From NCBI GenBank assembly GCA_035236585.1, contig CP141136.1, positions 34,246,949 to 34,310,948 of the forward strand: a stretch of DNA of 64,000 nucleotides, given 5' to 3'. The notes under the pieces are model-generated. The model worked only from the letters and a program-made list of their open reading frames with translations. It was not told the origin of the DNA and searched no databases. The translations under genes were made by a program, and so were the position numbers. This document shows, in pieces, positions 10,592-48,323 of the stretch (positions are counted from its first letter, which is position 1; the number at the start of each line of letters is the position of its first letter). Source of the DNA: Warburgia ugandensis (Eukaryota; Streptophyta; Magnoliopsida; Canellales; Canellaceae).

Positions 10592-10597
10592 GAAAAT

Positions 10598-13647: not shown

Positions 13648-13657
13648 GATAAGGTCT

Positions 13658-19718: not shown

Positions 19719-20060
19719 TTTTTGTGCCATGGACATTCAGAATAGTAGAATTGAGACAAATTGGTGATAGTAGAGTGATTTACAAGACTAGTTAGTTCAA
19801 AATATTGGGATACGTATACAATTTATCTTTTAAAATAGTTGGAATATGAAATTGCTCTTTTACCTTTGTACCATGGTCATTCATAACAGTAGAATTAAAC
19901 AAAATTAGGGATGATTAAATGATTTCTAAGACTAATACAGGCAAAATATTAGGAAACGTATACAATTTATCTTTCACTATAGTTGAAATGTGAAATTGCA
20001 CTATCTTATGTAAAACTAGATATTTTGTGACTTTTTTACTTTTGTACCCTCGCCATACAA
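19719..20060 (-). repeat. Start of satellite B block 5, continuous with array unit 1
   Basis: B-orientation satellite that runs without a break into the first 2.85-kb unit at 20061. Near 19855 about 45 bases of a monomer are missing: AAATTGCTCTTT is followed at once by TACCTTTGTACC. Confidence 0.7.
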
Positions 20061-22913
20061 AACAATACAATTAGGCCAAATTAGGGATAATTAAGTGATT
20101 TATGTGGCTAAAATATTCAAACCATAGGGATACATATCCAATTTCTCTTTTAGAATAGTTGGAATATGAAACTGCTCTTTTTGATGAAAAATTAGATAAT
20201 TTGTGCATTTGTACCGTAGAGCTTCGAAACAGTACAACTAAGCCGAATTAGAGACAATTAAGGGATTTTTAAGAATAAAATGTTCAAAATATAGGGAGGT
20301 GTATACAATTAGTTGGAATGTGAAATTGCACTTTCTTGTGCAAAATTGCATATTTTGTAAAATTTTTACGTTTTCACCTAGACCTTTAAAACATATATAT
20401 ATATATATATATGTATACAATTTATCTTTTAAAATAGTTGGAATGTGATATTGCTCTTTCTTGTATAAAATTAGATATTTTGTGTATTTTTTATATTTGT
20501 ACTCATGACCTTCAATATAGTAGAATTAAGCCTAATTAGTAATAATTTACTTATTTTTAAGATTAAAATATTCAAAATATAGAGATGTGTATACAATTTA
20601 TCTTTTAATATAGTTAGAATGTGAAATTGCTCTTTCTTATGTAAAATTAGATATTTTGTGCACTTTTTACATTGTATCCTCCACATTTAAAATAATAGAA
20701 TTATGACAAATTAGTGATAATTAAGTAATTTTTAAGGCTAAAATATTCAAAATATAGGTATATATGTACAAGTTATTTTAAAATAGTTGGAATGTGAGAT
20801 GGCTCATTCTTATGTAAAATTAGTTATTTTGTGCATATTTACATTTGTACCCTAGACCTTCAATAGAGTAGACTTAAGCCTAATTAGTGATAATTAAGTT
20901 ATTTTCAAAACTAAAGTATTTAAAATATAGGGATATGTATACAATTTATCTTTTAATATAGTTAGAATGTGAAATTGCTCTCTTTTTAATAAAATAAGTT
21001 ATTTTGTGCATTTTTTGATTTATACCCTCAACATTCAAAATAGTAGAACTAATCCAAATTAGTGATAATTAAGTAATTTCTAAGACTAAAATATTCAAAA
21101 TATACGAATATGTATACAATTTATCTTTTAAAATAGTTAGAATGTAAAATTGTTCTTTCTTGTGTAAAATTAGATATTTTGTGCATTTTTTATATTTGTA
21201 CCCTCGACCTTCAAAATAGTATAATTAAGCCTAATTAGTGATAATTAAGTAATTTTTAAGATTAAAATATTTAAAATATTGGGATATGTATACAATTTAT
21301 CTTTTAAAATAGTTGGAACTTGAAATTGCTTTTTCTTGTGTAAAATTAGATATTTTGTGTATTTTTTACACTTATATCTTGAGCCTTCAAAATAGTAGAA
21401 TGAAGCCTAATTAGTGATAATTAAGTGATTTTTTAGAAAGAGTAAATTGCATCTTGAAGGTCCAATTTGAGCAATTTGTGCATTTTTACATTTGTACCTG
21501 GTGAATACTTAAAGGAGAAAAACCCATAAAGAAGTTATTCATCGATTTTGGCTGGTGGACTTCAATCCTCTTTCTCCCATCAAATTTACATAGATTGTAA
21601 ATGTAACGAACAATAGATAGATAATTTCCCAAATGACGCTTTGCAAACATAAGAGAACTAATTCTCCAATAATGGGTACTATAAAAACTAATTTATTAGA
21701 CCTATATATAATGCCAAATTACTCTTTTAACCTAATGCATAAGTACAAATTCTACCATACTTTATCTGTCTTTTGAGTTTCTCTTTAATATTACTTTCCT
21801 TGATATGCTTGAAATAAGATACAATAGGAAACTTGTAGCATAGGTGCATAAAGGTATTATTCTAGTAGGCAATTTGTGTTGGTCATCAATTCTTTAATCC
21901 ACAAGTAGGAACACTTTGTATATGCTAGTATGGAGCCCCCAAAATGCTCTAATCAAGTACAAATGATGCATTAGATCATTTAATGGATTCTATGATGTAC
22001 CTACACTTGTGCACTCAGTGGTGCTTGAAACTTACCTAAATTGCGAACCCACTTGACTCCATTAGAATGTTTAGCATTGGTTTGATGCATTCAGAGACCC
22101 GCTTGGGGTTTGAAGAAATGCTTATTAAGAAAGTAGATAACAAGATGAAAGATCCCCTAAAAACTTGTTTGTTCATACTTCCTTTCTTTTGGCCCAAGAA
22201 ATATTTCAGCTATCAAACCAAAAGAATATATCATCACAAACTAAGACAGCAAAGGAATCCCATCATGGTTGACTATTGACACCATTGATCAGCATGTGTT
22301 GACACCATTGGTTTGGATCCTTTTGAGTTCAAAACAAAGGACAAATCATAAGCTTTAGGTTCCATGAGTCCCAAAGCATGCTTATCCTGGTCAACTTGGT
22401 GCTTTACACCCCTTATATATCAAAAACTTTACCTATGGCTATTACAAGTAAACTGGGTTGTTCATCTGCAGCAATTGTGAAAGGCTCCATAAACAGGCAA
22501 CCACTAGTGAAAGCTATACATTAGGTATTATATCACACAAGAGGATTTCAGTGTTTAGTGCCACTCATGCATGGCATATGAGTGCAATATCAACACATTT
22601 GTGACTTCACAAAATGTCTTACATGGCTATTTTGGGATTCTCTTAATGGCAATTTTTATGTGCTCAGCTTTGGGAAATGTTTCTGTTGATCTAAGGCTAT
22701 AACCATCCTCTTCATGCCATTATTCATACACTCCAATTACCTAATTCCTTATTTCATATCCAACTTGCCATTTTTCTAGTATTTACATCCAACTACCAAT
22801 CATAACAAAAATCTTATGCATTTCCTTCGTTTCTCTTCATTTCCATTAGAATTATAACAACTCCACAAACCTATCATCCTTGTAGAAAAGCTTGCAAATT
22901 CATGAATATGTGA
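20061..22913. repeat. Array unit 1 (2853 bp)
   Basis: Edge unit next to satellite domain 1. The AT tract at 20393-20412 is (AT)10. It carries TTTAAAACAT before the AT tract and CTTCATGCCATT near 22716, variants shared with unit 2 (and the second also with unit 9) but not with the inner units. Confidence 0.85.
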
Positions 22914-25769
22914 AACAATACAATTAGGCCAAATTAGGGATAATTAAGTGATTTATGTGGCTAAAATATTCAAACCATAGGGATACATATCCAATTTCTC
23001 TTTTAGAATAGTTGGAATGTGAAACTGCTCTTTTTGATGAAAAATTAGATAATTTGTGCATTTGTACCGTAGAGCTTCAAACCAGTACAACTAAGCCGAA
23101 TTAGAGACAATTAAGGGATTTTTAAGAATAAAATGTTCAAAATATAGGGAGGTGTATACAATTAGTTGGAATGTGAAATTGCACTTTCTTGTGCAAAATT
23201 GCATATTTTGTAAAATTTTTACGTTTTCACCTAGACCTTTAAAACATATATATATATATATATATATGTATACAATTTATCTTTTAAAATAGTTGGAATG
23301 TGATATTGCTCTTTCTTGTATAAAATTAGATATTTTGTGTATTTTTTATATTTGTACCCATGACCTTCAATATAGTAGAATTAAGCCTAATTAGTAATAA
23401 TTTACTTATTTTTAAGATTAAAATATTCAAAATATAGAGATGTGTATACAATTTATCTTTTAATATAGTTAGAATGTGAAATTGCTCTTTCTTATGTAAA
23501 ATTAGATATTTTGTGCACTTTTTACATTGTATCCTCCACATTTAAAATAATAGAATTATGACAAATTAGTGATAATTAAGTAATTTTTAAGGCTAAAATA
23601 TTCAAAATATAGGTATATATGTACAAGTTATTTTAAAATAGTTGGAATGTGAGATGGCTCATTCTTATGTAAAATTAGTTATTTTGTGCATATTTACATT
23701 TGTACCCTAGACCTTCAATAGAGTAGACTTAAGCCTAATTAGTGATAATTAAGTTATTTTCAAAACTAAAGTATTTAAAATATAGGGATATGTATACAAT
23801 TTATCTTTTAATTTAGTTGGAATGTGAAATTGCTCTCTTTTAATAGAATAAGTTATTTTGTGCATTTTTTGATTTATACCCTCAACATTCAAAATAGTAG
23901 AACTAATCCAAATTAGTGATAATTAAGTAATTTCTAAGACTAAAATATTCAAAATATACGAATATGTATACAATTTATCTTTTAAAATAGTTAGAATGTA
24001 AAATTGTTCTTCCTTGTGTAAAATTAGATATTTTGTGCATTTTTTATATTTGTACCCTCGACCTTCAAAATAGTAGAATTAAGCCTAATTAGTGATAATT
24101 AAGTAATTTTTAAGATTAAAATATTTAAAATATTGGGATATGTATACAATTTATCTTTTAAAATAGTTGGAACTGGAAATTGCTTTTTCTTGTGTAAAAT
24201 TAGATATTTTGTGTATTTTTTACACTTATATCTTGAGCCTTCAAAATAGTAGAATGAAGCCTAATTAGTGATAATTAAGTGATTTTTTAGAAAGAGTAAA
24301 TTGCATCTTGAAGGTCCAATTTGAGCAATTTGTGCATTTTTACATTTGTACCTGGTGAATACTTAAAGGAGAAAAACCCATAAAGAAGTTATTCATCAGA
24401 TTTTGGCTGGTGGACTTCAATCCTCTTTCTCCCATCAAATTTACATAGATTGTAAATGTAACGAACAATAGATAGATAATTTCCCAAATGACGCTTTGCA
24501 AACATAAGAGAACTAATTCTCCAATAATGGGTACTATAAAAACTAATTTATTAGACCTATATATAATGCCAAATTACTCTTTTAACCTAATGCATAAGTA
24601 CAAATTCTACCATACTTTATCTGTCTTTTGAGTTTCTCTTTAATATTACTTTCCTTGATATGCTTGAAATAAGATACAATAGGAAACTTGTAGCATAGGT
24701 GCATAAAGGTATTATTCTAGTAGGCAATTTGTGTTGGTCATCAATTCTTTAATCCACAAGTAGGAACACTTTGTATATGCTAGTATGGAGCCCCCAAAAT
24801 GCTCTAATCAAGTACAAATGATGCATTAGTTCATTTAATGGATTCTATGATGTACCTACACTTGTGCACTCAGTGGTGCTTGAAACTTATCTAAATTGCG
24901 AACCCACTTGACTCCATTAGAATGTTTAGCATTGGTTTGATGCATTCAGAGACCCACTTGGGGTTTGAAGAAATGCTTATTAAGAAAGTAGATAACAAGA
25001 TGAAAGATCCCCTAAAAACTTGTTTGTTCATACTTCCTTTCTTTTGGCACAAGAAATATTTCAGCTATCAAACCAAAAGAATATATCATCACAAACTGAG
25101 ACATCAAAGGAATCCCATCATGGTTGACTATTGGCAACATTGATCAGCATGTGTTGACACCATTAGTTTGGATCCTTTTGAGTTCAAAACAAAGGACAAA
25201 TCATAAGCTCTAGGTTCCATGAGTCCCAAAGCATGCTTATCCTGGTCAACTTGGTGCTTTACACCCCTTATAAATAAGAAACTTTACCTTTGGGCTATTA
25301 CAGGTAAACCGGATTGTTCGTCTGCATCAATTGTGAAAGGCTACATAAACAGGCAACCACTAGTGAAAGCTATACATTAGGTATTATATCACACAAGAGG
25401 ATTTCAGTGTTTAGTGCCACTCATGCATGGCGTATGCATGCAATATCAACACATTTGTGACTTCACAAAATGTCTTACATGGCTATTTTGGGATTATCCT
25501 AATGGCAATTTTTATGTGCTCAGCTTAGGGAAATGTTTCTGTTGATCTAAGGCTATAACCATCCTCTTCATGCCATTATTCATACACTCCAATTCCCTAA
25601 TTCCTTATTTCATATCCAGCTTGCCATTTTTCTAGTATTTACATCCAACTACCAATCATAACAAAAATCTTATGCATTTCCTTCGTTTCTCTTCATTTCC
25701 ATTAGAATTATAACAACTCCACAAACCTATCATCCTTGTAGAAAAGCTTGCAAATTCATGAATATGTGA
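22914..25769. repeat. Array unit 2 (2856 bp), mosaic with left-arm variants
   Basis: The AT tract at 23246-23267 is (AT)11. From about 25045 to 25625 many bases match the left inverted arm (1836-4059) and not the other units: GGCACAAG, AGCTCTAGG, GTAAACCGG, CTGCATCAATTG, GGCTACATAAAC, CCTAATGG, CCCTAATTCC and CCAGCTTGCC. The stretch is either a conversion tract from the inverted arm or an unhomogenised older copy. Confidence 0.85.
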
Positions 25770-28629
25770 AACAATACAATTAGGCCAAATTAGGGATAAT
25801 TAAGTGATTTATGTGGCTAAAATATTCAAACCATAGGGATACATATCCAATTTCTCTTTTAGAATAGTTGGAATGTGAAAGCTTGCTCTTTTTGATGAAA
25901 AATTAGATAATTTGTGCATTTGTACCGTAGAGCTTCAAAACAGTACAACTAAGCCGAATTAGAGACAATTAAGGGATTTTTAAGAATAAAATGTTCAAAA
26001 TATAGGGAGGTGTATACAATTAGTTGGAATGTGAAATTGCACTTTCTTGTGCAAAATTGCATATTTTGTAAAATTTTTACGTTTTCACCTAGACCTTTGA
26101 AACATATATATATATATATATATATATGTATACAATTTATCTTTTAAAATAGTTGGAATGTGATATTGCTCTTTCTTGTATAAAATTAGATATTTTGTGT
26201 ATTTTTTATATTTGTACCCATGACCTTCAATATAGTAGAATTAAGCCTAATTAGTAATAATTTACTTATTTTTAAGATTAAAATATTCAAAATATAGAGA
26301 TGTGTATACAATTTATCTTTTAATATAGTTAGAATGTGAAATTGCTCTTTCTTATGTAAAATTAGATATTTTGTGCACTTTTTACATTGTATCCTCCACA
26401 TTTAAAATAATAGAATTATGACAAATTAGTGATAATTAAGTAATTTTTAAGGCTAAAATATTCAAAATATAGGTATATATGTACAAGTTATTTTAAAATA
26501 GTTGGAATGTGAGATGGCTCATTCTTATGTAAAATTAGTTATTTTGTGCATATTTACATTTGTACCCTAGACCTTCAATAGAGTAGACTTAAGCCTAATT
26601 AGTGATAATTAAGTTATTTTCAAAACTAAAGTATTTAAAATATAGGGATATGTATACAATTTATCTTTTAATATAGTTAGAATGTGAAATTGCTCTCTTT
26701 TAATAAAATAAGTTATTTTGTGCATTTTTTTATTTATACCCTCAACATTCAAAATAGTAGAACTAATCCAAATTAGTGATAATTAAGTAATTTCTAAGAC
26801 TAAAATATTCAAAATATACGAATATGTATACAATTTATCTTTTAAAATAGTTAGAATGTAAAATTGTTCTTCCTTGTGTAAAATTAGATATTTTGTGCAT
26901 TTTTTATATTTGTACCCTCGACCTTCAAAATAGTAGAATTAAGCCTAATTAGTGATAATTAAGTAATTTTTAAGATTAAAATATTTAAAATATTGGGATA
27001 TGTATACAATTTATCTTTTAAAATAGTTGGAACTCGAAATTGCTTTTTCTTGTGTAAAATTAGATATTTTGTGTATTTTTTACACTTATATCTTGAGCCT
27101 TCAAAATAGTAGAATGAAGCCTAATTAGTGATAATTAAGTGATTTTTTAGAAAGAGTAAATTGCATCTTGAAGGTCCAATTTGAGCAATTTGTGCATTTT
27201 TACATTTGTACCTGGTGAATACTTAAAGGAGAAAAACCCATAAAGAAGTTATTCATCGATTTTGGCTGGTGGACTTCAATCCTCTTTCTCCCATCAAATT
27301 TACATAGATTGTAAATGTAACGAACAATAGATAGATAATTTCCCAAATGACGCTTTGCAAACATAAGAGAACTAATTCTCCAATAATGGGTACTATAAAA
27401 ACTAATTTATTAGACCTATATATAATGCCAAATTACTCTTTTAACCTAATGCATAAGTACAAATTCTACCATACTTTATCTGTCTTTTGAGTTTCTCTTT
27501 AATATTACTTTCCTTGATATGCTTGAAATAAGATACAATAGGAAACTTGTAGCATAGGTGCATAAAGGTATTATTCTAGTAGGCAATTTGTGTTGGTCAT
27601 CAATTCTTTAATCCACAAGTAGGAACACTTTGTATATGCTAGTATGGAGCCCCCAAAATGCTCTAATCAAGTACAAATGATGCATTAGTTCATTTAATGG
27701 ATTCTATGATGTACCTACACTTGTGCACTCAGTGGTGCTTGAAACTTATCTAAATTGCGAACCCACTTGACTCCATTAGAATGTTTAGCATTGGTTTGAT
27801 GCATTCGAGAGACCCGCTTGGGGTTTGAAGAAATGCTTATTAAGAAAGTAGATAACAAGATGAAAGATCCCCTAAAAACTTGTTTGTTCATACTTCCTTT
27901 CTTTTGGCCCAAGAAATATTTCAGCTATCAAACCAAAAGAATATATCATCACAAACTAAGACATCAAAGGAATCCCATCATGGTTGACTATTGACACCAT
28001 TGATCGGCATGTGTTGGCACCATTGGTTTGGATCCTTTTGAGTTCAAAACAAAGGACAAATCATAAGCTTTAGGTTCCATGAGTCCCAAAGCATGCTTAT
28101 CCTGGTCAACTTGGTGCTTTACACCCCTTATAAATCAGAAACTTTACCTATGGCTATTACAAGTAAACTGGGTTGTTCATCTGCAGCAATTGTGAAAGGC
28201 TCCATAAACGAGGCAACCACTAGTAAAAGCTATACATTAGGTATTATATCACACAAGAGGATTTCAGTGTTTAGTGCCACTCATGCATGGCATATGAGTG
28301 CAATATCAACACATTTGTGACTTCACAAAATGTCTTACATGGCTATTTTGGGATTCTCTTAATGGCAATTTTTATGTGCTCAGCTTTGGGAAATGTTTAC
28401 GTTGATCTAAGGCTATAACCATCCTCTTCATTTCATTATTCATACACTCCAATTACCTAATTCCTTATTTCATATCCAACTTGCCATTTTTCTAGTATTT
28501 ACATCCAACTACCAATCATAACAAAAATCTTATGCATTTCCTTCGTTTCTCTTCATTTCCATTAGAATTATAACAACTCCACAAACCTATCATCCTTGTA
28601 GAAAAGCTTGCAAATTCATGAATATGTGA
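25770..28629. repeat. Array unit 3 (2860 bp)
   Basis: The AT tract at 26104-26127 is (AT)12. It has an extra base in GCATTCGAGAGACC near 27800, shared only with unit 6. It also has TAAACGAGGCAACC near 28205, seen in no other unit. Confidence 0.85.
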
Positions 28630-31480
28630 AACAATACAATTAGGCCAAATTAGGGATAATTAAGTGATTTATGTGGCTAAAATATTCAAACCATAGGGAT
28701 ACATATCCAATTTCTCTTTTAGAATAGTTGGAATGTGAAACTGCTCTTTTTGATGAAAAATTAGATAATTTGTGCATTTGTACCGTAGAGCTTCAAAACA
28801 GTACAACTAAGCCGAATTAGAGACAATTAAGGGATTTTTAAGAATAAAATGTTCAAAATATAGGGAGGTGTATACAATTAGTTGGAATGTGAAATTGCAC
28901 TTTCTTGTGCAAAATTGCATATTTTGTAAAATTTTTACGTTTTCACCTAGACCTTTGAAACATATATATATATATATATGTATACAATTTATCTTTTAAA
29001 ATAGTTGGAATGTGATATTGCTCTTTCTTGTATAAAATTAGATATTTTGTGTATTTTTTATATTTGTACCCATGACCTTCAATATAGTAGAATTAAGCCT
29101 AATTAGTAATAATTTACTTATTTTTAAGATTAAAATATTCAAAATATAGAGATGTGTATACAATTTATCTTTTAATATAGTTAGAATGTGAAATTGCTCT
29201 TTCTTATGTAAAATTAGATATTTTGTGCACTTTTTACATTGTATCCTCCACATTTAAAATAATAGAATTATGACAAATTAGTGATAATTAAGTAATTTTT
29301 AAGGCTAAAATATTCAAAATATAGGTATATATGTACAAGTTATTTTAAAATAGTTGGAATGTGAGATGGCTCATTCTTATGTAAAATTAGTTATTTTGTG
29401 CATATTTACATTTGTACCCTAGACCTTCAATAGAGTAGACTTAAGCCTAATTAGTGATAATTAAGTTATTTTCAAAACTAAAGTATTTAAAATATAGGGA
29501 TATGTATACAATTTATCTTTTAATATAGTTAGAATGTGAAATTGCTCTCTTTTAATAAAATAAGTTATTTTGTGCATTTTTTGATTTATACCCTCAACAT
29601 TCAAAATAGTAGAACTAATCCAAATTAGTGATAATTAAGTAATTTCTAAGACTAAAATATTCAAAATATACGAATATGTATACAATTTATCTTTTAAAAT
29701 AGTTAGAATGTAAAATTGTTCTTCCTTGTGTAAAATTAGATATTTTGTGCATTTTTTATATTTGTACCCTCGACCTTCAAAATAGTAGAATTAAGCCTAA
29801 TTAGTGATAATTAAGTAATTTTTAAGATTAAAATATTTAAAATATTGGGATATGTATACAATTTATCTTTTAAAATAGTTGGAACTTGAAATTGCTTTTT
29901 CTTGTGTAAAATTAGATATTTTGTGTATTTTTTACACTTATATCTTGAGCCTTCAAAATAGTAGAATGAAGCCTAATTAGTGATAATTAAGTGATTTTTT
30001 AGAAAGAGTAAATTGCATCTTGAAGGTCCAATTTGAGCAATTTGTGCATTTTTACATTTGTACCTGGTGAATACTTAAAGGAGAAAAACCCATAAAGAAG
30101 TTATTCATCAGATTTTGGCTGGTGGACTTCAATCCTCTTTCTCCCATCAAATTTACATAGATTGTAAATGTAACGAACAATAGATAGATAATTTCCCAAA
30201 TGACGCTTTGCAAACATAAGAGAACTAATTCTCCAATAATGGGTACTATAAAAACTAATTTATTAGACCTATATATAATGCCAAATTACTCTTTTAACCT
30301 AATGCATAAGTACAAATTCTACCATACTTTATCTGTCTTTTGAGTTTCTCTTTAATATTACTTTCCTTGATATGCTTGAAATAAGATACAATAGGAAACT
30401 TGTAGCATAGGTGCATAAAGGTATTATTCTAGTAGGCAATTTGTGTTGGTCATCAATTCTTTAATCCACAAGTAGGAACACTTTGTATATGCTAGTATGG
30501 AGCCCCCAAAATGCTCTAATCAAGTACAAATGATGCATTAGTTCATTTAATGGATTCTATGATGTACCTACACTTGTGCACTCAGTGGTGCTTGAAACTT
30601 ATCTAAATTGCGAACCCACTTGACTCCATTAGAATGTTTAGCATTGGTTTGATGCATTCAGAGACCCGCTTGGGGTTTGAAGAAATGCTTATTAAGAAAG
30701 TAGATAACAAGATGAAAGATCCCCTAAAAACTTGTTTGTTCATACTTCCTTTCTTTTGGCCCAAGAAATATTTCAGCTATCAAACCAAAAGAATATATCA
30801 TCACAAACTAAGACATCAAAGGAATCCCATCATGGTTGACTATTGACACCATTGATCAGCATGTGTTGACACCATTGGTTTGGATCCTTTTGAGTTCAAA
30901 ACAAAGGACAAATCATAAGCTTTAGGTTCCATGAGTCCCAAAGCATGCTTATCCTGGTCAACTTGGTGCTTTACACCCCTTATAAATCAGAAACTTTACC
31001 TATGGCTATTACAAGTAAACTGGGTTGTTCATCTGCAGCAATTGTGAAAGGCTCCATAAACAGGCAACCACTAGTGAAAGCTATACATTAGGTATTATAT
31101 CACACAAGAGGATTTCAGTGTTTAGTGCCACTCATGCATGGCATATGAGTGCAATATCAACACATTTGTGACTTCACAAAATGTCTTACATGGCTATTTT
31201 GGGATTCTCTTAATGGCAATTTTTATGTGCTCAGCTTTGGGAAATGTTTCCGTTGATCTAAGGCTATAACCATCCTCTTCATTTCATTATTCATACACTC
31301 CAATTACCTAATTCCTTATTTCATATCCAACTTGCCATTTTTCTAGTATTTACATCCAACTACCAATCATAACAAAAATCTTATGCATTTCCTTCGTTTC
31401 TCTTCATTTCCATTAGAATTATAACAACTCCACAAACCTATCATCCTTGTAGAAAAGCTTGCAAATTCATGAATATGTGA
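28630..31480. repeat. Array unit 4 (2851 bp)
   Basis: The AT tract at 28962-28979 is (AT)9. It has the CATCAGATTTTGG variant near 30107, shared with units 2 and 7. Otherwise close to the inner-unit consensus. Confidence 0.85.
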
Positions 31481-34312
31481 AACAATACAATTAGGCCAAA
31501 TTAGGGATAATTAAGTGATTTATGTGGCTAAAATATTCAAACCATAGGGATACATATCCAATTTCTCTTTTAGAATAGTTGGAATGTGAAACTGCTCTTT
31601 TTGATGAAAAATTAGATAATTTGTGCATTTGTACCGTAGAGCTTCAAAACAGTACAACTAAGCCGAATTAGAGACAATTAAGGGATTTTTAAGAATAAAA
31701 TGTTCAAAATATAGGGAGGTGTATACAATTAGTTGGAATGTGAAATTGCACTTTCTTGTGCAAAATTGCATATTTTGTAAAATTTTTACGTTTTCACCTA
31801 GACCTTTGAAACATATATATATATATATGTATACAATTTATCTTTTAAAATAGTTGGAATGTGATATTGCTCTTTCTTGTATAAAATTAGATATTTTGTG
31901 TATTTTTTATATTTGTACCCATGACCTTCAATATAGTAGAATTAAGCCTAATTAGTAATAATTTACTTATTTTTAAGATTAAAATATTCAAAATATAGAG
32001 ATGTGTATACAATTTATCTTTTAATATAGTTAGAATGTGAAATTGCTCTTTCTTATGTAAAATTAGATATTTTGTGCACTTTTTACATTGTATCCTCCAC
32101 ATTTAAAATAATAGAATTATGACAAATTAGTGATAATTAAGTAATTTTTAAGGCTAAAATATTCAAAATATAGGTATATATGTACAAGTTATTTTAAAAT
32201 AGTTGGAATGTGAGATGGCTCATTCTTATGTAAAATTAGTTATTTTGTGCATATTTACATTTGTACCCTAGACCTTCAATAGAGTAGACTTAAGCCTAAT
32301 TAGTGATAATTAAGTTATTTTCAAAACTAAAGTATTTAAAATATAGGGATATGTATACAATTTATCTTTTAATATAGTTAGAATGTGAAATTGCTCTCTT
32401 TTTAATAAAATAAGTTATTTTGTGCATTTTTTGATTTATACCCTCAACATTCAAAATAGTAGAACTAATCCAAATTAGTGATAATTAAGTAATTTCTAAG
32501 ACTAAAATATTCAAAATATACGAATATGTATACAATTTATCTTTTAAAATAGTTAGAATGTAAAATTGTTCTTCCTTGTGTAAAATTAGATATTTTGTGC
32601 ATTTTTTATATTTGTACCCTCGACCTTCAAAATAGTAGAATTAAGCCTAATTAGTGATAATTAAGTAATTTTTAAGATTAAAATATTTAAAATATTGGGA
32701 TATGTATACAATTTATCTTTTAAAATAGTTGGAACTTGAAATTGCTTTTTCTTGTGTAAAATTAGATATTTTGTGTATTTTTTACACTTATATCTTGAGC
32801 CTTCAAAATAGTAGAATGAAGCCTAATTAGTGATAATTAAGTGATTTTTTAGAAAGAGTAAATTGCATCTTGAAGGTCCAATTTGAGCAATTTGTGCATT
32901 TTTACATTTGTACCTGGTGAATACTTAAAGGAGAAAAACCCATAAAGAAGTTATTCATCGATTTTGGCTGGTGGACTTCAATCCTCTTTCTCCCATCAAA
33001 TTTACATAGATTGTAAATGTAACGAACAATAGATAGATAATTTCCCAAATGACGCTTTGCAAACATAAGAGAACTAATTCTCCAATAATGGGTACTATAA
33101 AAACTAATTTATTAGACCTATATATAATGCCAAATTACTCTTTTAACCTAATGCATAAGTACAAATTCTACCATACTTTATCTGTCTTTTGAGTTTCTCT
33201 TTAATATTACTTTCCTTGATATGCTTGAAATAAGATACAATAGGAAACTTGTAGCATAGGTGCATAAAGGTATTATTCTAGTAGGCAATTTGTGTTGGTC
33301 ATCAATTCTTTAATCCACAAGTAGGAACACTTTGTATATGCTAGTATGGAGCCCCCAAAATGCTCTAATCAAGTACAAATGATGCATTAGTTCATTTAAT
33401 GGATTCTATGATGTACCTACACTTGTGCACTCGGTGCCTGAAACTTATCTAAAATGCGAACCCACTTGACTCCATTAGAATGTTTAGCATTGGTTTGATG
33501 CATTTAGAGACCCACTTGGGGTTTGAAGAAGTGCTTATTAAGAAAGTAGATAACAAGATGAAAGATCCCCTAAAAACTTGTTCATTCAGACTTCCTTTCT
33601 TTTGGCCCAAGAAATATTTCAGCTATCAAACCAAAAGAATATATAATCACAAACTCAGACATCAAAGGAATCCCATCATGGGTGATTATTGAGCATGTGT
33701 TGACACCATTGGTTTGGATCCTTTTGAGTTCAAAACAAAGGACAAATCATAAGCTTTAGGTTCCATGAGTCCCAAAGCATGCTTATCCTGGTCAACTTGG
33801 TGCTTTACACCCCTTATAAATCAGAAACTTTACCTATGGCTATTACAAGTAAACTGGTTGTTCATCTGCAGCAATTGTGAAAGGCTCCATAAACAGGCAA
33901 CCACTAGTGAAAGCTATACATTAGGTATTATATCACACAAGAGGATTTCAGTGTTTAGTGCCACTCATGCATGGCATATGAGTGCAATATCAACACATTT
34001 GTGACTTCACAAAATGTCTTACATGGCTATTTTGGGATTCTCTTAATGGCAATTTTTATGTGCACAGCTTTGGGAAATGTTTCATTGATCTAAGGCTATA
34101 ACCATCCTCTTCATTTCATTATTCATACACTCCAATTACCTAATTCCTTATTTCATATCCAACTTGCCATTTTTCTAGTATTTACATCCAACTACCAATC
34201 ATAACAAAAATCTTATGCATTTCCTTCGTTTCTCTTCATTTCCATTAGAATTATAACAACTCCACAAACCTATCATCCTTGTAGAAAAGCTTGCAAATTC
34301 ATGAATATGTGA
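31481..34312. repeat. Array unit 5 (2832 bp), mosaic with a left-arm patch
   Basis: The AT tract at 31813-31828 is (AT)8, the shortest. Between about 33428 and 33690 it matches the left inverted arm against all other units at several points: GGTGCCTGAAAC, TTCATTCAGACTTCC, ATATAATCACAAACTCAG and CATGGGTGA. A deletion after TGATTATTGA explains the short length. Confidence 0.85.
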
Positions 34313-37164
34313 AACAATACAATTAGGCCAAATTAGGGATAATTAAGTGATTTATGTGGCTAAAATATTCAAACCATAGGGATACATATCCAATTTCTCT
34401 TTTAGAATAGTTGGAATGTGAAACGCTCTTTTGATGTAAAATTAGATAATTTGTGCATTTGTACCGTAGAGCTTCAAAACAGGACAACTAAGCCGAATTA
34501 GAGACAATTAAGGGATTTTTAAGAATAAAATGTTCAAAATATAGGGAGGTGTATACAATTAGTTGGAATGTGAAATTGCACTTTCTTGTGCAAAATTGCA
34601 TATTTTGTAAAATTTTTACGTTTTCACCTAGACCTTTGAAACATATATATATATATATATATGTATACAATTTATCTTTTAAAATAGTTGGAATGTGATA
34701 TTGCTCTTTCTTGTATAAAATTAGATATTTTGTGTATTTTTTATATTTGTACCCATGACCTTCAATATAGTAGAATTAAGCCTAATTAGTAATAATTTAC
34801 TTATTTTTAAGATTAAAATATTCAAAATATAGAGATGTGTATACAATTTATCTTTTAATATAGTTAGAATGTGAAATTGCTCTTTCTTATGTAAAATTAG
34901 ATATTTTGTGCACTTTTTACATTGTATCCTCCACATTTAAAATAATAGAATTATGACAAATTAGTGATAATTAAGTAATTTTTAAGGCTAAAATATTCAA
35001 AATATAGGTATATATGTACAAGTTATTTTAAAATAGTTGGAATGTGAGATGGCTCATTCTTATGTAAAATTAGTTATTTTGTGCATATTTACATTTGTAC
35101 CCTAGACCTTCAATAGAGTAGACTTAAGCCTAATTAGTGATAATTAAGTTATTTTCAAAACTAAAGTATTTAAAATATAGGGATATGTATACAATTTATC
35201 TTTTAATATAGTTAGAATGTGAAATTGCTCTCTTTTTAATAAAATAAGTTATTTTGTGCATTTTTTGATTTATACCCTCAACATTCAAAATAGTAGAACT
35301 AATCCAAATTAGTGATAATTAAGTAATTTCTAAGACTAAAATATTCAAAATATACGAATATGTATACAATTTATCTTTTAAAATAGTTAGAATGTAAAAT
35401 TGTTCTTCCTTGTGTAAAATTAGATATTTTGTGCATTTTTTATATTTGTACCCTCGACCTTCAAAATAGTAGAATTAAGCCTAATTAGTGATAATTAAGT
35501 AATTTTTAAGATTAAAATATTTAAAATATTGGGATATGTATACAATTTATCTTTTAAAATAGTTGGAACTTGAAATTGCTTTTTCTTGTGTAAAATTAGA
35601 TATTTTGTGTATTTTTTACACTTATATCTTGAGCCTTCAAAATAGTAGAATGAAGCCTAATTAGTGATAATTAAGTGATTTTTTAGAAAGAGTAAATTGC
35701 ATCTTGAAGGTCCAATTTGAGCAATTTGTGCATTTTTACATTTGTACCTGGTGAATACTTAAAGGAGAAAAACCCATAAAGAAGTTATTCATCGATTTTG
35801 GCTGGTGGACTTCAATCCTCTTTCTCCCATCAAATTTACATAGATTGTAAATGTAACGAACAATAGATAGATAATTTCCCAAATGACGCTTTGCAAACAT
35901 AAGAGAACTAATTCTCCAATAATGGGTACTATAAAAACTAATTTATTAGACCTATATATAATGCCAAATTACTCTTTTAACCTAATGCATAAGTACAAAT
36001 TCTACCATACTTTATCTGTCTTTTGAGTTTCTCTTTAATATTACTTTCCTTGATATGCTTGAAATAAGATACAATAGGAAACTTGTAGCATAGGTGCATA
36101 AAGGTATTATTCTAGTAGGCAATTTGTGTTGGTCATCAATTCTTTAATCCACAAGTAGGAACACTTTGTATATGCTAGTATGGAGCCCCCAAAATGCTCT
36201 AATCAAGTACAAATGATGCATTAGTTCATTTAATGGATTCTATGATGTACCTACACTTGTGCACTCAGTGGTGCTTGAAACTTATCTAAATTGCGAACCC
36301 ACTTGACTCCATTAGAATGTTTAGCATTGGTTTGATGCATTCGAGAGACCCGCTTGGGGTTTGAAGAAATGCTTATTAAGAAAGTAGATAACAAGATGAA
36401 AGATCCCCTAAAAACTTGTTTGTTCATACTTCCTTTCTTTTGGCCCAAGAAATATTTCAGCTATCAAACCAAAAGAATATATCATCACAAACTAAGACAT
36501 CAAAGGAATCCCATCATGGTTGACTATTGACACCATTGATCAGCATGTGTTGACACCATTGGTTTGGATCCTTTTGAGTTCAAAACAAAGGACAAATCAT
36601 AAGCTTTAGGTTCCATGAGTCCCAAAGCATGCTTATCCTGGTCAACTTGGTGCTTTACACCCCTTATAAATCAGAAACTTTACCTATGGCTATTACAAGT
36701 AAACTGGGTTGTTCATCTGCAGCAATTGTGAAAGGCTCCATAAACAGGCAACCACTAGTGAAAGCTATACATTAGGTATTATATCACACAAGAGGATTTC
36801 AGTGTTTAGTGCCACTCATGCATGGCATATGAGTGCAATATCAACACATTTGTGACTTCACAAAATGTCTTACATGGCTATTTTGGGATTCTCTTAATGG
36901 CAATTTTTATGTGCTCAGCTTTGGGAAATGTTTCTGTTGATCTAAGGCTATAACCATCCTCTTCATTTCATTATTCATACACTCCAATTACCTAATTCCT
37001 TATTTCATATCCAACTTGCCATTTTTCTAGTATTTACATCCAACTACCAATCATAACAAAAATCTTATGCATTTCCTTCGTTTCTCTTCATTTCCATTAG
37101 AATTATAACAACTCCACAAACCTATCATCCTTGTAGAAAAGCTTGCAAATTCATGAATATGTGA
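34313..37164. repeat. Array unit 6 (2852 bp)
   Basis: The AT tract at 34643-34662 is (AT)10. It shares the extra base in GCATTCGAGAGACC (near 36340) with unit 3. It has private variants near 34425 (AAACGCTCTTTTGATG) and 34480 (AACAGGACAAC). Confidence 0.85.
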
Positions 37165-40023
37165 AACAATACAATTAGGCCAAATTAGGGATAATTAAGT
37201 GATTTATGTGGCTAAAATATTCAAACCATAGGGATACATATCCAATTTCTCTTTTAGAATAGTTGGAATGTGAAACTGCTCTTTTTGATGAAAAATTAGA
37301 TAATTTGTGCATTTGTACCGTAGAGCTTCAAAACAGTACAACTAAGCCGAATTAGAGACAATTAAGGGATTTTTAAGAATAAAATGTTCAAAATATAGGG
37401 AGGTGTATACAATTAGTTGGAATGTGAAATTGCACTTTCTTGTGCAAAATTGCATATTTTGTAAAATTTTTACGTTTTCACCTAGACCTTTGAAACATAT
37501 ATATATATATATATATATATATGTATACAATTTATCTTTTAAAATAGTTGGAATGTGATATTGCTCTTTCTTGTATAAAATTAGATATTTTGTGTATTTT
37601 TTATATTTGTACCCATGACCTTCAATATAGTAGAATTAAGCCTAATTAGTAATAATTTACTTATTTTTAAGATTAAAATATTCAAAATATAGAGATGTGT
37701 ATACAATTTATCTTTTAATATAGTTAGAATGTGAAATTGCTCTTTCTTATGTAAAATTAGATATTTTGTGCACTTTTTACATTGTATCCTCCACATTTAA
37801 AATAATAGAATTATGACAAATTAGTGATAATTAAGTAATTTTTAAGGCTAAAATATTCAAAATATAGGTATATATGTACAAGTTATTTTAAAATAGTTGG
37901 AATGTGAGATGGCTCATTCTTATGTAAAATTAGTTATTTTGTGCATATTTACATTTGTACCCTAGACCTTCAATAGAGTAGACTTAAGCCTAATTAGTGA
38001 TAATTAAGTTATTTTCAAAACTAAAGTATTTAAAATATAGGGATATGTATACAATTTATCTTTTAATATAGTTAGAATGTGAAATTGCTCTCTTTTTAAT
38101 AAAATAAGTTATTTTGTGCATTTTTTGATTTATACCCTCAACATTCAAAATAGTAGAACTAATCCAAATTAGTGATAATTAAGTAATTTCTAAGACTAAA
38201 ATATTCAAAATATACGAATATGTATACAATTTATCTTTTAAAATAGTTAGAATGTAAAATTGTTCTTCCTTGTGTAAAATTAGATATTTTGTGCATTTTT
38301 TATATTTGTACCCTCGACCTTCAAAATAGTAGAATTAAGCCTAATTAGTGATAATTAAGTAATTTTTAAGATTAAAATATTTAAAATATTGGGATATGTA
38401 TACAATTTATCTTTTAAAATAGTTGGAACTTGAAATTGCTTTTTCTTGTGTAAAATTAGATATTTTGTGTATTTTTTACACTTATATCTTGAGCCTTCAA
38501 AATAGTAGAATGAAGCCTAATTAGTGATAATTAAGTGATTTTTTAGAAAGAGTAAATTGCATCTTGAAGGTCCAATTTGAGCAATTTGTGCATTTTTACA
38601 TTTGTACCTGGTGAATACTTAAAGGAGAAAAACCCATAAAGAAGTTATTCATCAGATTTTGGTTGGTGGACTTCAATCCTCTTTCTCCCATCAAATTTAC
38701 ATAGATTGTAAATGTAACGAACAATAGATAGATAATTTCCCAAATGACGCTTTGCAAACATAAGAGAACTAATTCTCCAATAATGGGTACTATAAAAACT
38801 AATTTATTAGACCTATATATAATGCCAAATTACTCTTTTAACCTAATGCATAAGTACAAATTCTACCATACTTTATCTGTCTTTTGAGTTTCTCTTTAAT
38901 ATTACTTTCCTTGATATGCTTGAAATAAGATACAATAGGAAACTTGTAGCATAGGTGCATAAAGGTATTATTCTAGTAGGCAATTTGTGTTGGTCATCAA
39001 TTCTTTAATCCACAAGTAGGAACACTTTGTATATGCTAGTATGGAGCCCCCAAAATGCTCTAATCAAGTACAAATGATGCATTAGTTCATTTAATGGATT
39101 CTATGATGTACCTACACTTGTGCACTCAGTGGTGCTTGAAACTTATCTAAATTGCGAACCCACTTGACTCCATTAGAATGTTTAGCATTGGTTTGATGCA
39201 TTCAGAGACCCGCTTGGGGTTTGAAGAAATGCTTATTAAGAAAGTAGATAACAAGATGAAAGATCCCCTAAAAACTTGTTTGTTCATACTTCCTTTCTTT
39301 TGGCCCAAGAAATATTTCAGCTATCAAACCAAAAGAATATATCATCACAAACTAAGACATCAAAGGAATCCCATCATGGTTGACTATTGACACCATTGAT
39401 CAGCATGTGTTGACACCATTGGTTTGGATCCTTTTGAGTTCAAAACAAAGGACAAATCATAAGCTTTAGGTTCCATGAGTCCCAAAGCATGCTTATCCTG
39501 GTCAACTTGGTGCTTTACACCCCTTATAAATCAGAAACTTTACCTATGGCTATTACAAGTAAACTGGGTTGTTCATCTGCAGCAATTGTGAAAGGCTCCA
39601 TAAACAGCAACCACTAGTGAAAGCTATACATTAGGTATTATATCACACAAGAGGATTTCAGTGTTTAGTGCCACTCATGCATGGCATATGAGTGCAATAT
39701 CAACACATTTGTGACTTCACAAAATGTCTTACATGGCTATTTTGGGATTCTCTTAATGGCAATTTTTATGTGCTCAGCTTTGGGAAATGTTTCTGTTGAT
39801 CTAAGGCTATAACCATCCTCTTCATTTCATTATTCATACACTCCAATTACCTAATTCCTTATTTCATATCCAACTTGCCATTTTTCTAGTATTTACATCC
39901 AACTACCAATCATAACAAAAATCTTATGCATTTCCTTCGTTTCTCTTCATTTCCATTAGAATTATAACAACTCCACAAACCTATCATCCTTGTAGAAAAG
40001 CTTGCAAATTCATGAATATGTGA
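37165..40023. repeat. Array unit 7 (2859 bp)
   Basis: The AT tract at 37497-37522 is (AT)13, the longest. It has CATCAGATTTTGGTTGG near 38652 and TAAACAGCAACC near 39602, the latter shared with unit 8. Confidence 0.85.
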
Positions 40024-42874
40024 AACAATACAATTAGGCCAAATTAGGGATAATTAAGTGATTTATGTGGCTAAAATATTCAAACCATAGGGATACATAT
40101 CCAATTTCTCTTTTAGAATAGTTGGAATGTGAAACTGCTCTTTTTGATGAAAAATTAGATAATTTGTGCATTTGTACCGTAGAGCTTCAAAACAAGACAA
40201 CTAAGCCGAATTAGAGACAATTAAGGGATTTTTAAGAATAAAATGTTCAAAATATAGGGAGGTGTATACAATTAGTTGGAATGTGAAATTGCACTTTCTT
40301 GTGCAAAATTGCATATTTTGTAAAATTTTTACGTTTTCACCTAGACCTTTGAAACATATATATATATATATATGTATACAATTTATCTTTTAAAATAGTT
40401 GGAATGTGATATTGCTCTTTCTTGTATAAAATTAGATATTTTGTGTATTTTTTATATTTGTACCCATGACCTTCAATATAGTAGAATTAAGCCTAATTAG
40501 TAATAATTTACTTATTTTTAAGATTAAAATATTCAAAATATAGAGATGTGTATACAATTTATCTTTTAATATAGTTAGAATGTGAAATTGCTCTTTCTTA
40601 TGTAAAATTAGATATTTTGTGCACTTTTTACATTGTATCCTCCACATTTAAAATAATAGAATTATGACAAATTAGTGATAATTAAGTAATTTTTAAGGCT
40701 AAAATATTCAAAATATAGGTATATATGTACAAGTTATTTTAAAATAGTTGGAATGTGAGATGGCTCATTCTTATGTAAAATTAGTTATTTTGTGCATATT
40801 TACATTTGTACCCTAGACCTTCAATAGAGTAGACTTAAGCCTAATTAGTGATAATTAAGTTATTTTCAAAACTAAAGTATTTAAAATATAGGGATATGTA
40901 TACAATTTATCTTTTAATATAGTTAGAATGTGAAATTGCTCTCTTTTTAATAAAATAAGTTATTTTGTGCATTTTTTGATTTATACCCTCAACATTCAAA
41001 ATAGTAGAACTAATCCAAATTAGTGATAATTAAGTAATTTCTAAGACTAAAATATTCAAAATATACGAATATGTATACAATTTATCTTTTAAAATAGTTA
41101 GAATGTAAAATTGTTCTTCCTTGTGTAAAATTAGATATTTTGTGCATTTTTTATATTTGTACCCTCGACCTTCAAAATAGTAGAATTAAGCCTAATTAGT
41201 GATAATTAAGTAATTTTTAAGATTAAAATATTTAAAATATTGGGATATGTATACAATTTATCTTTTAAAATAGTTGGAACTTGAAATTGCTTTTTCTTGT
41301 GTAAAATTAGATATTTTGTGTATTTTTTACACTTATATCTTGAGCCTTCAAAATAGTAGAATGAAGCCTAATTAGTGATAATTAAGTGATTTTTTAGAAA
41401 GAGTAAATTGCATCTTGAAGGTCCAATTTGAGCAATTTGTGCATTTTTACATTTGTACCTGGTGAATACTTAAAGGAGAAAAACCCATAAAGAAGTTATT
41501 CATCGATTTTGGCTGGTGGACTTCAATCCTCTTTCTCCCATCAAATTTACATAGATTGTAAATGTAACGAACAATAGATAGATAATTTCCCAAATGACGC
41601 TTTGCAAACATAAGAGAACTAATTCTCCAATAATGGGTACTATAAAAACTAATTTATTAGACCTATATATAATGCCAAATTACTCTTTTAACCTAATGCA
41701 TAAGTACAAATTCTACCATACTTTATCTGTCTTTTGAGTTTCTCTTTAATATTACTTTCCTTGATATGCTTGAAATAAGATACAATAGGAAACTTGTAGC
41801 ATAGGTGCATAAAGGTATTATTCTAGTAGGCAATTTGTGTTGGTCATCAATTCTTTAATCCACAAGTAGGAACACTTTGTATATGCTAGTATGGAGCCCC
41901 CAAAATGCTCTAATCAAGTACAAATGATGCATTAGTTCATTTAATGGATTCTATGATGTACCTACACTTGTGCACTCAGTGGTGCTTGAAACTTATCTAA
42001 ATTGCGAACCCACTTGACTCCATTAGAATGTTTAGCATTGGTTTGATGCATTCAGAGACCCGCTTGGGGTTTGAAGAAATGCTTATTAAGAAAGTAGATA
42101 ACAAGATGAAAGATCCCCTAAAAACTTGTTTGTTCATACTTCCTTTCTTTTGGCCCAAGAAATATTTCAGCTATCAAACCAAAAGAATATATCATCACAA
42201 ACTAAGACATCAAAGGAATCCCATCATGGTTGACTATTGACACCATTGATCAGCATGTGTTGACACCATTGGTTTGGATCCTTTTGAGTTCAAAACAAAG
42301 GACAAATCATAAGCTTTAGGTTCCATGAGTCCCAAAGCATGCTTATCCTGGTCAACTTGGTGCTTTACACCCCTTATAAATCAGAAACTTTACCTATGGC
42401 TATTACAAGTAAACTGGGTTGTTCATCTGCAGCAATTGTGAAAGGCTCCATAAACAGCAACCACTAGTGAAAGCTATACATTAGGTATTATATCACACAA
42501 GAGGATTTCAGTGTTTAGTGCCACTCATGCATGGCATATGAGTGCAATATCAACACATTTGTGACTTCACAAAATGTCTTACATGGCTATTTTGGGATTC
42601 TCTTAATGGCAATTTTTATGTGCTCAGCTTTGGGAAATGTTTCTCATTGATCTAAGGCTATAACCATCCTCTTCATTTCATTATTCATACACTCCAATTA
42701 CCTAATTCCTTATTTCATATCCAACTTGCCATTTTTCTAGTATTTACATCCAACTACCAATCATAACAAAAATCTTATGCATTTCCTTCGTTTCTCTTCA
42801 TTTCCATTAGAATTATAACAACTCCACAAACCTATCATCCTTGTAGAAAAGCTTGCAAATTCATGAATATGTGA
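40024..42874. repeat. Array unit 8 (2851 bp)
   Basis: The AT tract at 40356-40373 is (AT)9. It has TAAACAGCAACC near 42451 (shared with unit 7), AACAAGACAAC near 40190, and a CATTGATC variant near 42645 related to the one in unit 5. Confidence 0.85.
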
Positions 42875-45726
42875 AACAATACAATTAGGCCAAATTAGGG
42901 ATAATTAAGTGATTTATGTGGCTAAAATATTCAAACCATAGGGATACATATCCAATTTCTCTTTTAGAATAGTTGGAATGTGAAACTGCTCTTTTTGATG
43001 AAAAATTAGATAATTTGTGCATTTGTACCGTAGAGCTTCAAAACAGTACAACTAAGCCGAATTAGAGACAATTAAGGGATTTTTAAGAATAAAATGTTCA
43101 AAATATAGGGAGGTGTATACAATTAGTTGGAATGTGAAATTGCACTTTCTTGTGCAAAATTGCATATTTTGTAAAATTTTTACGTTTTCACCTAGACCTT
43201 TGAAACATATATATATATATATATATGTATACAATTTATCTTTTAAAATAGTTGGAATGTGATATTGCTCTTTCTTGTATAAAATTAGATATTTTGTGTA
43301 TTTTTTATATTTGTACCCATGACCTTCAATATAGTAGAATTAAGCCTAATTAGTAATAATTTACTTATTTTTAAGATTAAAATATTCAAAATATAGAGAT
43401 GTGTATACAATTTATCTTTTAATATAGTTAGAATGTGAAATTGCTCTTTCTTATGTAAAATTAGATATTTTGTGCACTTTTTACATTGTATCCTCCACAT
43501 TTAAAATAATAGAATTATGACAAATTAGTGATAATTAAGTAATTTTTAAGGCTAAAATATTCAAAATATAGGTATATATGTACAAGTTATTTTAAAATAG
43601 TTGGAATGTGAGATGGCTCATTCTTATGTAAAATTAGTTATTTTGTGCATATTTACATTTGTACCCTAGACCTTCAATAGAGTAGACTTAAGCCTAATTA
43701 GTGATAATTAAGTTATTTTCAAAACTAAAGTATTTAAAATATAGGGATATGTATACAATTTATCTTTTAATATAGTTAGAATGTGAAATTGCTCTCTTTT
43801 AATAAAATAAGTTATTTTGTGCATTTTTTGATTTATACCCTCAACATTCAAAATAGTAGAACTAATCCAAATTAGTGATAATTAAGTAATTTCTAAGACT
43901 AAAATATTCAAAATATACGAATATGTATACAATTTATCTTTTAAAATAGTTAGAATGTAAAATTGTTCTTCCTTGTGTAAAATTAGATATTTTGTGCATT
44001 TTTTATATTTGTACCCTCGACCTTCAAAATAGTAGAATTAAGCCTAATTAGTGATAATTAAGTAATTTTTAAGATTAAAATATTTAAAATATTGGGATAT
44101 GTATACAATTTATCTTTTAAAATAGTTGGAACTTGAAATTGCTTTTTCTTGTGTAAAATTAGATATTTTGTGTATTTTTTACACTTATATCTTGAGCCTT
44201 CAAAATAGTAGAATGAAGCCTAATTAGTGATAATTAAGTGATTTTTTAGAAAGAGTAAATTGCATCTTGAAGGTCCAATTTGAGCAATTTGTGCATTTTT
44301 ACATTTGTACCTGGTGAATACTTAAAGGAGAAAAACCCATAAAGAAGTTATTCATCGATTTTGGTTGGTGGACTTCAATCCTCTTTCTCCCATCAAATTT
44401 ACATAGATTGTAAATGTAACGAACAATAGATAGATAATTTCCCAAATGACGCTTTGCAAACATAAGAGAACTAATTCTCCAATAATGGGTACTATAAAAA
44501 CTAATTTATTAGACCTATATATAATGCCAAATTACTCTTTTAACCTAATGCATAAGTACAAATTCTACCATACTTTATCTGTCTTTTGAGTTTCTCTTTA
44601 ATATTACTTTCCTTGATATGCTTGAAATAAGATACAATAGGAAACTTGTAGCATAGGTGCATAAAGGTATTATTCTAGTAGGCAATTTGTGTTGGTCATC
44701 AATTCTTTAATCCACAAGTAGGAACACTTTGTATATGCTAGTATGGAGCCCCCAAAATGCTCTAATCAAGTACAAATGATGCATTAGTTCATTTAATGGA
44801 TTCTATGATGTACCTACACTTGTGCACTCAGTGGTGCTTGAAACTTATCTAAATTGCGAACCCACTTGACTCCATTAGAATGTTTAGCATTGGTTTGATG
44901 CATTCAGAGACCCGCTTGGGGTTTGAAGAAATGCTTATTAAGAAAGTAGATAACAAGATGAAAGATCCCCTAAAAACTTGTTTGTTCATACTTCCTTTCT
45001 TTTGGCCCAAGAAATATTTCAGCTATCAAACCAAAAGAATATATCATCACAAACTAAGACATCAAAGGAATCCCATCATGGTTGACTATTGACACCATTG
45101 ATCAGCATGTGTTGACACCATTGGTTTGGATCCTTTTGAGTTCAAAACAAAGGACAAATCATAAGCTTTAGGTTCCATGAGTCCCAAAGCATGCTTATCC
45201 TGGTCAACTTGGTGCTTTACACCCCTTATAAATCAGAAACTTTACCTATGGCTATTACAAGTAAACTGGGTTGTTCATCTGCAGCAATTGTGAAAGGCTC
45301 CATAAACAGGCAACCACTAGTGAAAGCTATACATTAGGTATTATATCACACAAGAGGATTTCAGTGTTTAGTGCCACTCATGCATGGCATATGAGTGCAA
45401 TATCAACACATTTGTGACTTCACAAAATGTCTTACATGGCTATTTTGGGATTCTCTTAATGGCAATTTTTATGTGCTCAGCTTTGGGAAATGTTTCTGTT
45501 GATCTAAGGCTATAACCATCCTCTTCATGCCATTATTCATACACTCCAATTACCTCATTCCTTATTTCATATCCAACTTGCCATTTTTCTAGTATTTACA
45601 TCCAACTACCAATCATAACAAAAATCTTATGCATTTCCTTCGTTTCTCTTCATTTCCATTAGAATTATAACAACTCCACAAACCTATCATCCTTGTAGAA
45701 AAGCTTGCAAATTCATGAATATGTGA
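42875..45726. repeat. Array unit 9 (2852 bp), right edge
   Basis: The AT tract at 43207-43226 is (AT)10. Like units 1 and 2 it has CTTCATGCCATT near 45522, where inner units have CATTTCATT. Its spacer continues past 45726 into unique DNA, so it keeps the original right boundary. Confidence 0.85.
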
Positions 45727-47590
<1,864 letters not shown>

Positions 47591-48234: not shown

Positions 48235-48323
48235 GCCAGCTATTGCTGTGTTCCATGCCTTAAGCCCATGACCTCAAAATCACATGACGATATAACTTTA
48301 TCGTTGCACCAAGGCTTCCCCTT
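48235..48323 (-). mobile_element. tRNA-derived SINE fragment (Au-SINE-like)
   Basis: On the minus strand, from 48323, AGGGGAAGCCTTGGTGCAAC then GATAAAGTT resembles a pol III box A region. It is followed about 30 nt later by GAGGTCATGGGCTTAAGGC, a degenerate box B. This order (GCCTTGGTGCAACGGTAAAG, then GAGGTCACGGGTTC) is the head of a widespread plant SINE family. The 3' half is not recognisable past about 48235. The satellite resumes directly at its 5' side. Confidence 0.6.

Follow-up and report, generated by a model that had tools for sequence, protein, structure and literature searches.

The nine-unit array and its junction

The 64,000-nucleotide stretch of Warburgia ugandensis DNA analysed here (hereafter the window; C11:34246949-34310948 of an assembly of 1.12 Gb in 14 contigs) consists in large part of an AT-rich 176-bp satellite in both orientations. 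Within it lies an array of nine head-to-tail units, each composed of ~1.4 kb of this satellite and ~1.4 kb of spacer, next to a fragment of a phosphatase gene of the PFA-DSP type. The array, the parts of its first unit (U1) and the gene fragment on its right are as follows.

20061..45726, + strand: young composite array of nine head-to-tail units of 2832-2860 bp (U1 to U9), with eight identical internal junctions and 98.6-99.9% pairwise identity
20061..21500, + strand: satellite part of U1, namely ~330 bp in the register of an older satellite array, an (AT)n run at ~20391-20416, ~1.03 kb of satellite of subfamily A, then a small piece of rearranged satellite
21501..22913, + strand: spacer of U1, found in all nine units; the distal part of intron 2 in a PFA-DSP-type phosphatase gene, with C5 positions 5381-6774 matching the unit spacers at 85-87%
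45727..46812, - strand: proximal intron 2, ancestral right flank of the array, next to the spacer in all 21 dispersed copies that were examined, C5 included
46905-46813, - strand: exon 2 of the PFA-DSP-type gene fragment
47251-47090, possibly from 47287, - strand: coding exon 1 of the gene fragment
47288..48237, - strand: upstream part of the gene fragment, in which 48237-47416 corresponds to C5 3074-3882 at 84%

The units start at 20061, 22914, 25770, 28630, 31481, 34313, 37165, 40024 and 42875; the array extends to 45726 and is 25.7 kb long. The satellite part of a unit measures ~1.38-1.44 kb, depending on whether the short rearranged piece (~21438-21500) is omitted or counted. The junction ATATGTGA|AACAATAC occurs exactly eight times in the window, which is the number of internal junctions expected of nine units, and each half is also present singly at the corresponding outer edge of the array. 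Full-length matches of a 110-bp query spanning the junction were found at eight places in the genome, all of them within the C11 array (40 of 362 candidates were scored, so that these counts are lower bounds). The nine-copy composite array of ~2.85-kb units with the same junction each time, as described in the first-pass annotation, is thereby confirmed. Two exact matches of a junction 16-mer on C3 and C9 are attributed to chance, lying in 3-kb loci that contain no satellite, with 1+1 matches from a reversed control. The junction can slide by one base (A) and the overlap is no longer than that; a 201-nt stretch at the junction folds no better than its shuffles, 188 of 200 of which were at least as good.

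The private differences in U1 to U9 number 10, 28, 10, 0, 31, 7, 2, 2 and 1, respectively, and U4, U7, U8 and U9 are mutually 99.75-99.93% identical. The closeness of these four is what would be seen if the assembler had multiplied one unit or an array with fewer units. Against this, eight of the nine units hold differences of their own, including in U5 a short tract with subfamily-B alleles, and therefore the units are not simple assembler duplicates, although the assembled number of copies may not be exact. An artefact of assembly is considered very improbable.

The spacer as a dispersed piece of a phosphatase gene

The identity of the spacer is indicated by a copy on C5 that lies in an apparently complete gene of five exons (their ends set by eye), whose combined protein matches PF03162 (Y_phosphatase2) at 8.6e-55; no satellite was found at this gene in the 10 kb fetched. 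Intron 2 of the C5 gene occupies 4516-7101 of locus L042 and the spacer match occupies 5381-6774 within it; therefore, the satellite starts ~330 bp before exon 3. C5 3910-4539 corresponds to window positions 47412-46789 at 88%, and the likeness to the spacer is 86-89% for C5 versus 68-78% for C9. From this collinearity with the C5 gene, the spacer is identified as intron 2 of a PFA-DSP-type phosphatase gene. The earlier description of it as gene-flank DNA was right to relate it to a gene and wrong to place it in the flank.

The fragment beside the array retains exons 1 and 2 only, in agreement with the phosphatase gene remnant already noted there. The N-terminal part of the PFA-DSP family (PF03162) is recognizable in it: a 29-aa piece of exon 1 matches PF03162 at 4e-07 and the closest solved protein to exons 1 and 2 together is Arabidopsis At1g05000 (4e-22), while the open reading frame (ORF) with exon 2 alone matched no family. 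A scan of the six frames of the window for the catalytic exon found no P-loop-like motif with at least 6 of 10 residues; an intron of the C5 gene interrupts this motif after its sixth residue. Further phosphatase exons hidden in the window are rejected, as the two 5-of-10 motif matches look like chance and no catalytic exon was found on C11. PF03162 was matched at 33 places genome-wide, of which three (on C5, C6 and C9) also match the catalytic exon; 27 of the remaining 30 have exon 1 without it (23 on C4, two on C14 and two on C11). Of the 18 fetched non-C5 copies that have an exon match, 13 have exon 1 or exon 2 disrupted by a stop or frameshift.

Outside the array the spacer occurs at ~31 places: 23 on C4 (at 75.15-75.87 Mb and 15-179 kb), four on C14, two on C11, one on C5 and one on C9. 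This number is a lower bound, obtained by grouping 50 match rows with neighbouring pieces merged, 40 of 46 candidates having been scored; flanks were examined for 21 of the places, the other ten being partial matches from which no locus was cut. The presence of gene-fragment copies both at the very start of C4 (15502-179636) and again at 75.15-75.87 Mb could mean either that there are two clusters or that the scaffolding is wrong. All 20 copies examined outside C5 have satellite next to the spacer, and in none of the 21 outside copies examined does satellite follow the spacer as it does at the unit junction. Arrays of the spacer elsewhere without the satellite, named in the first-pass annotation as grounds for dismissing its proposal, were not seen; the nearest outside spacer starts are 5.5 kb apart, on C4, with pieces merged.

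Apart from the C5 copy and three copies on C14, the examined copies fall into two subfamilies, A (eight examined, near the array) and B (nine examined, among them an inverted copy in the window itself at 1833-4395). Inverted pairs in which a B copy on the minus strand, B'(-), is followed by an A copy on the plus strand, A(+), recur on C4 at ~75.350/75.364 Mb and ~75.793/75.806 Mb. The A side of the latter pair (P1) is 95.2% identical over 6079 bp to window positions 43217-49266 and contains one spacer, the match spanning satellite, spacer, exons and beyond; its B side is 94.9% identical to window positions 1833-4549. P1 is a single-copy paralogue of the C11 array locus.

A tree of the spacer places the array as one group (support 100/99) beside subfamily A and nested among the dispersed copies. 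For the spacer, mean Kimura two-parameter (K2P) distances come to 0.115 between all copies and C5, 0.088 between A plus array and B, and 0.038 between array and A; among the units the mean is 0.0034 without U2 and U5 and 0.0084 with both. These distances yield an order of events and not dates, and the array is young relative to the other copies, as had been proposed, as well as tandem. (Locus L038 joined B for the distances; the counts of majority alleles in U2 and U5 used eight B copies.) Within the array, U2 branches apart from the remaining eight units (100/99); U3 to U8 form a group with modest support (81/81) that excludes U1 and U9.

These results bear on the version of events offered by the first-pass annotation, in which a unique gene-flank sequence joined directly to satellite founded a new satellite family at this place. 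The full junction, found at the C11 array locus only, and the adjoining remnant of a phosphatase gene are compatible with it. The spacer is intronic, however, and its presence at ~31 places outside the array already contradicts its uniqueness; furthermore, the A copies on C4 are closer to U4 (96.0-96.7%) than is the copy in the same window (91.9%). As the spacer is a dispersed repeat and the tree nests the array among its copies, the term unique-derived is not supported, and this version has very little probability left. A mobile element, Helitron-like or other, that carried satellite and gene fragment and inserted in tandem would account for a block that is found on several chromosomes with its internal layout conserved. 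No Helitron-type termini were recognised at the unit ends by eye, with no terminus search run; the adjoining of the same satellite to every examined non-C5 copy fits segmental duplication, and the edges of the array are native sequence. Transposition of this kind is correspondingly hard to credit.

Array edges and the proposed origin

The edges can be judged against the older satellite to the left of the array, the features of which are listed here.

1833..4395, - strand: inverted subfamily-B copy with proximal intron 2, spacer and ~295 bp of satellite, unbroken across the point that matches the right edge of the array
4395..5518, - strand: minus satellite arm linking the B copy to the older array, with 90.2% identity to the minus arm of O1 and 92.1% to that of O4, these being the arms compared
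5519..20391, both orientations: older array of inverted satellite dimers, with four whole units and a partial fifth; plus arm ~1.57 kb, minus arm ~1.2 kb
Older units: O1 5519-8286; O2 8287-14169; O3 14170-16916; O4 16917-19720; partial O5 19721-~20391; O1-O4 are 91.9-95.2% identical
10595..13681, + strand: insertion in O2 resembling a retrotransposon without long terminal repeats (non-LTR), with a (TGA)n tail at its 3' end and the target-site duplication TTTTAGTCT

At the left edge, the array is in register with the older units, which have their AACAATAC at 5889, 8654, 14541 and 17288. In steps of 200 columns, the identity of U1 to O4 falls from 89-93% to 77-80% near the (AT)n run at 20391-20416, beyond which O5 passes into another run of monomers. 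The alignment of P1 (on C4) starts at its position 15758, which is window position 43217. At the right edge, the spacer passes uninterrupted into the further sequence of intron 2, as it does in the dispersed copies; this right flank is shortened to 134 bp in the copy L018 and to 790 bp in the inverted copy of the window. Because the left edge continues the older array and the right flank follows the spacer in 21 of 21 other copies, both edges are ancestral sequence and neither is an insertion scar, just as the first-pass annotation had maintained that the outer edges keep their original flanks. The eight bases flanking each breakpoint (20053-20060, CCATACAA; 45727-45734, CCATAGAA) agree at seven of eight positions, for which the chance is ~0.002 per random pair. 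An insertion with an 8-bp target duplication is ruled out by the native character of both flanks.

The array probably originated as a young local tandem array, by duplication of a boundary between satellite and captured intron at one locus on C11. First, a ~4-kb 5' fragment of a PFA-DSP-type gene related to that on C5, comprising exons 1-2 and the greater part of intron 2, would have landed inside the 176-bp satellite, of which the copies and their collinearity are the evidence. Blocks bounded by satellite would then have spread over the satellite regions of C4, C14 and C11 as subfamilies A and B and also as inverted B'(-)...A(+) pairs, a layout that is observed and an order that is taken from the tree. 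A rearrangement on C11 at the (AT)n run, where the join itself can be read, may have connected the older inverted-dimer array to one A block. An illegitimate end join with a one-base overlap (A), between a site in intron 2 and one in the upstream satellite, would have made the first 2.85-kb tandem duplication and with it the junction now observed. Unequal exchange and gene conversion among the units could then have produced nine copies and maintained ~99% identity, and tracts that look imported (a short stretch of subfamily-B alleles in U5 and one of mostly ancestral alleles in U2) are patterns that such a process might leave. No encoded function is required by this scheme, in which the array would be a by-product of recombination in satellite regions.

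The tracts in U5 and U2 were examined in substitutions only: with gapped columns and columns of more than two bases omitted, 18 were counted in U2 and 11 in U5, compared to 23 and 29 spacer changes including indels. The private alleles of U5 at spacer positions 731, 732, 793 and 830 are present in nine of nine B copies and three of three C14 copies, in none of eight A copies and not in C5; that at 737 is in seven of nine B copies. The private substitutions of U2 all lie within 755-1324 of ~1475 bases (18 of 18; 4e-8 under uniform chance, for a span picked post hoc), and the U2 allele is carried by at least half of the A copies at 10 of the 18 sites and by at least half of the eight B copies at 11. 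Both stretches may be read as conversion tracts, from a B-type copy at least in part for U5 and from an unsampled copy for U2. The stretch of subfamily-B alleles in U5 suggests that the array has exchanged sequence with copies outside it.

Another route to the same structure is excision of the segment as an extrachromosomal circle, its multiplication by rolling-circle replication and its reinsertion at the source by homology. Head-to-tail units, a single junction and near-identical copies are the expected product of this route. Against it, both edges are collinear with ancestral flanks, so that no insertion scar is needed; the sequence itself tells neither for nor against it. It is given as unlikely, though deserving more weight than assembler duplication, transposition or founding from a unique flank.

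Several observations count against origin by local duplication as set out above. Amplification and reintegration of a circle would yield an identical sequence outcome; a plain end join leaves the likeness of CCATACAA and CCATAGAA unaccounted for; and the copy number rests on the assembly, in which U4, U7, U8 and U9 are nearly identical. Variants shared among units conflict with one another and give no single order of amplification; conflicting informative sites are the expected outcome if units exchange. U5 does not carry a clean B tract: of its 11 counted private substitutions, six are the B-majority allele and two the A-majority allele, the allele at 679 is in six of eight A copies and no B copy, and those at 602 and 834 are in none of 21 copies. 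Eight of the 18 U2 alleles are not carried by half of the A copies, and the U2 tract could be retained ancestral sequence.

Status of the array among satellites

As in a satellite array, the C11 copies are head-to-tail with a constant junction and are more alike within the array (mean K2P 0.0084) than they are to the nearest subfamily elsewhere (0.038). The full junction was matched in one 25.7-kb array alone, where a long array or multiple arrays would be looked for in a satellite. The array is thus incipient and not yet a satellite family, being so far one local array of nine copies; the forming of a new satellite family claimed for it holds for the fusion of satellite with gene-related DNA and is generous in the word family. 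Higher-order repeats consist of kilobase units of many monomers only, near-identical within an array and differing between arrays. The C11 array resembles them in its kilobase units of many monomers and departs from the pure form in that intron 2 makes up about half of each unit.

Four other arrays with kilobase periods are known from samples of 6-9 kb each.

C4:75875001-75884000 (L051): local array, period 2804 bp, 99.0% identical
C4:75278001-75286000 (L052): local array, period ~3.11 kb, 98.3% identical
C11:34360001-34367000 (L053): local array, period 2763 bp, 99.5% identical
C7:37606001-37612000 (L054): local array, period ~2545 bp, 99.4% identical

The samples L051, L052 and L053 gave no match to the spacer or the right flank. 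In the C7 sample, which was not compared with these, satellite in a single orientation extends over 44-5999 of 6000 bases. All four look to be satellite-only, judging from these samples. Since local arrays of this kind recur, tandem amplification is not rare in this satellite; among the arrays sampled, it is the intron DNA within its unit that distinguishes the C11 array. A wider possibility, put forward tentatively and with the odds against it, is that satellite regions are a platform for capture and amplification, where inverted dimers and AT runs repeatedly provoke amplification with kilobase periods, captured intron DNA becomes satellite, and the genome preserves every stage from complete gene to array.

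A search of the literature for gene-derived, intron-derived or composite satellites returned partial precedents only, which is no proof that none is in print; six satellite sequence strings did not occur in the published paper texts searched, and a satellite 31-mer had 0 matches in viral contigs. In a study of Lathyrus sativus (PMC7004042), plant satellites are derived from retrotransposons, and as on C11 local expansion of an otherwise dispersed sequence leads to new satellite arrays; the source there is short tandem arrays within LTR retrotransposons, in contrast to the junction of an older satellite with a captured gene intron. In Eremias velox (PMC8160951), fragments of the ATF7IP2 gene that keep 3 of 10 exons are amplified on the W chromosome. 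That repeat is likewise formed in part by fragments of an ordinary gene with some exons only; it spreads along a sex chromosome with short interspersed nuclear elements (SINEs), whereas on C11 satellite borders the gene piece and the two are amplified together in tandem. The arrays of Crassostrea gigas (PMC7492417) are short, satellite-like and dispersed in the genome, as are those considered here, and ride on a mobile element, a Helentron; none was found at the C11 array, where no search for element ends was run.

The C11 array is a young, locus-private composite. The gene fragment from which it arose was dispersed and bounded by satellite beforehand, the part taken into the units is intron, and the array shows a gene intron drawn into the repeat unit of a satellite. 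The beginnings of satellites are usually inferred after the intermediates have vanished. For the C11 array the set of intermediates is unusually complete: a single assembly contains a related gene free of satellite, 20 examined copies of its 5' part that are bounded by satellite and fall into two main subfamilies, a paralogue of the locus in single-copy state and the young array itself, and the order of the steps can therefore be tested in relatives.

Elsewhere in the window, the inverted spacer copy at 1833-4395, which like the older inverted-dimer array (~5519-20391) and the multicopy nature of the spacer is absent from the first-pass annotation, gives a 2595-bp alignment of 89.2% identity to the reverse complement of 43957-46516 and clusters with the B copies. 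The insertion at 10595-13681 matches RVT_1 at 3.1e-14 and 2.1e-11 on two separate frames. To the left of the locus, 982-1400 contains short tandem repeats around ACTTTTAAAGT-like palindromes. To its right, 48542-64000 is occupied by large satellite blocks that alternate in orientation, with a suggested period of ~1.05 kb; distant pieces of it are nearly identical, such as 61422-62405 and 49271-50251 (inverted, 97.2%) or 57378-58653 and 61874-63133 (direct, 95.3%).

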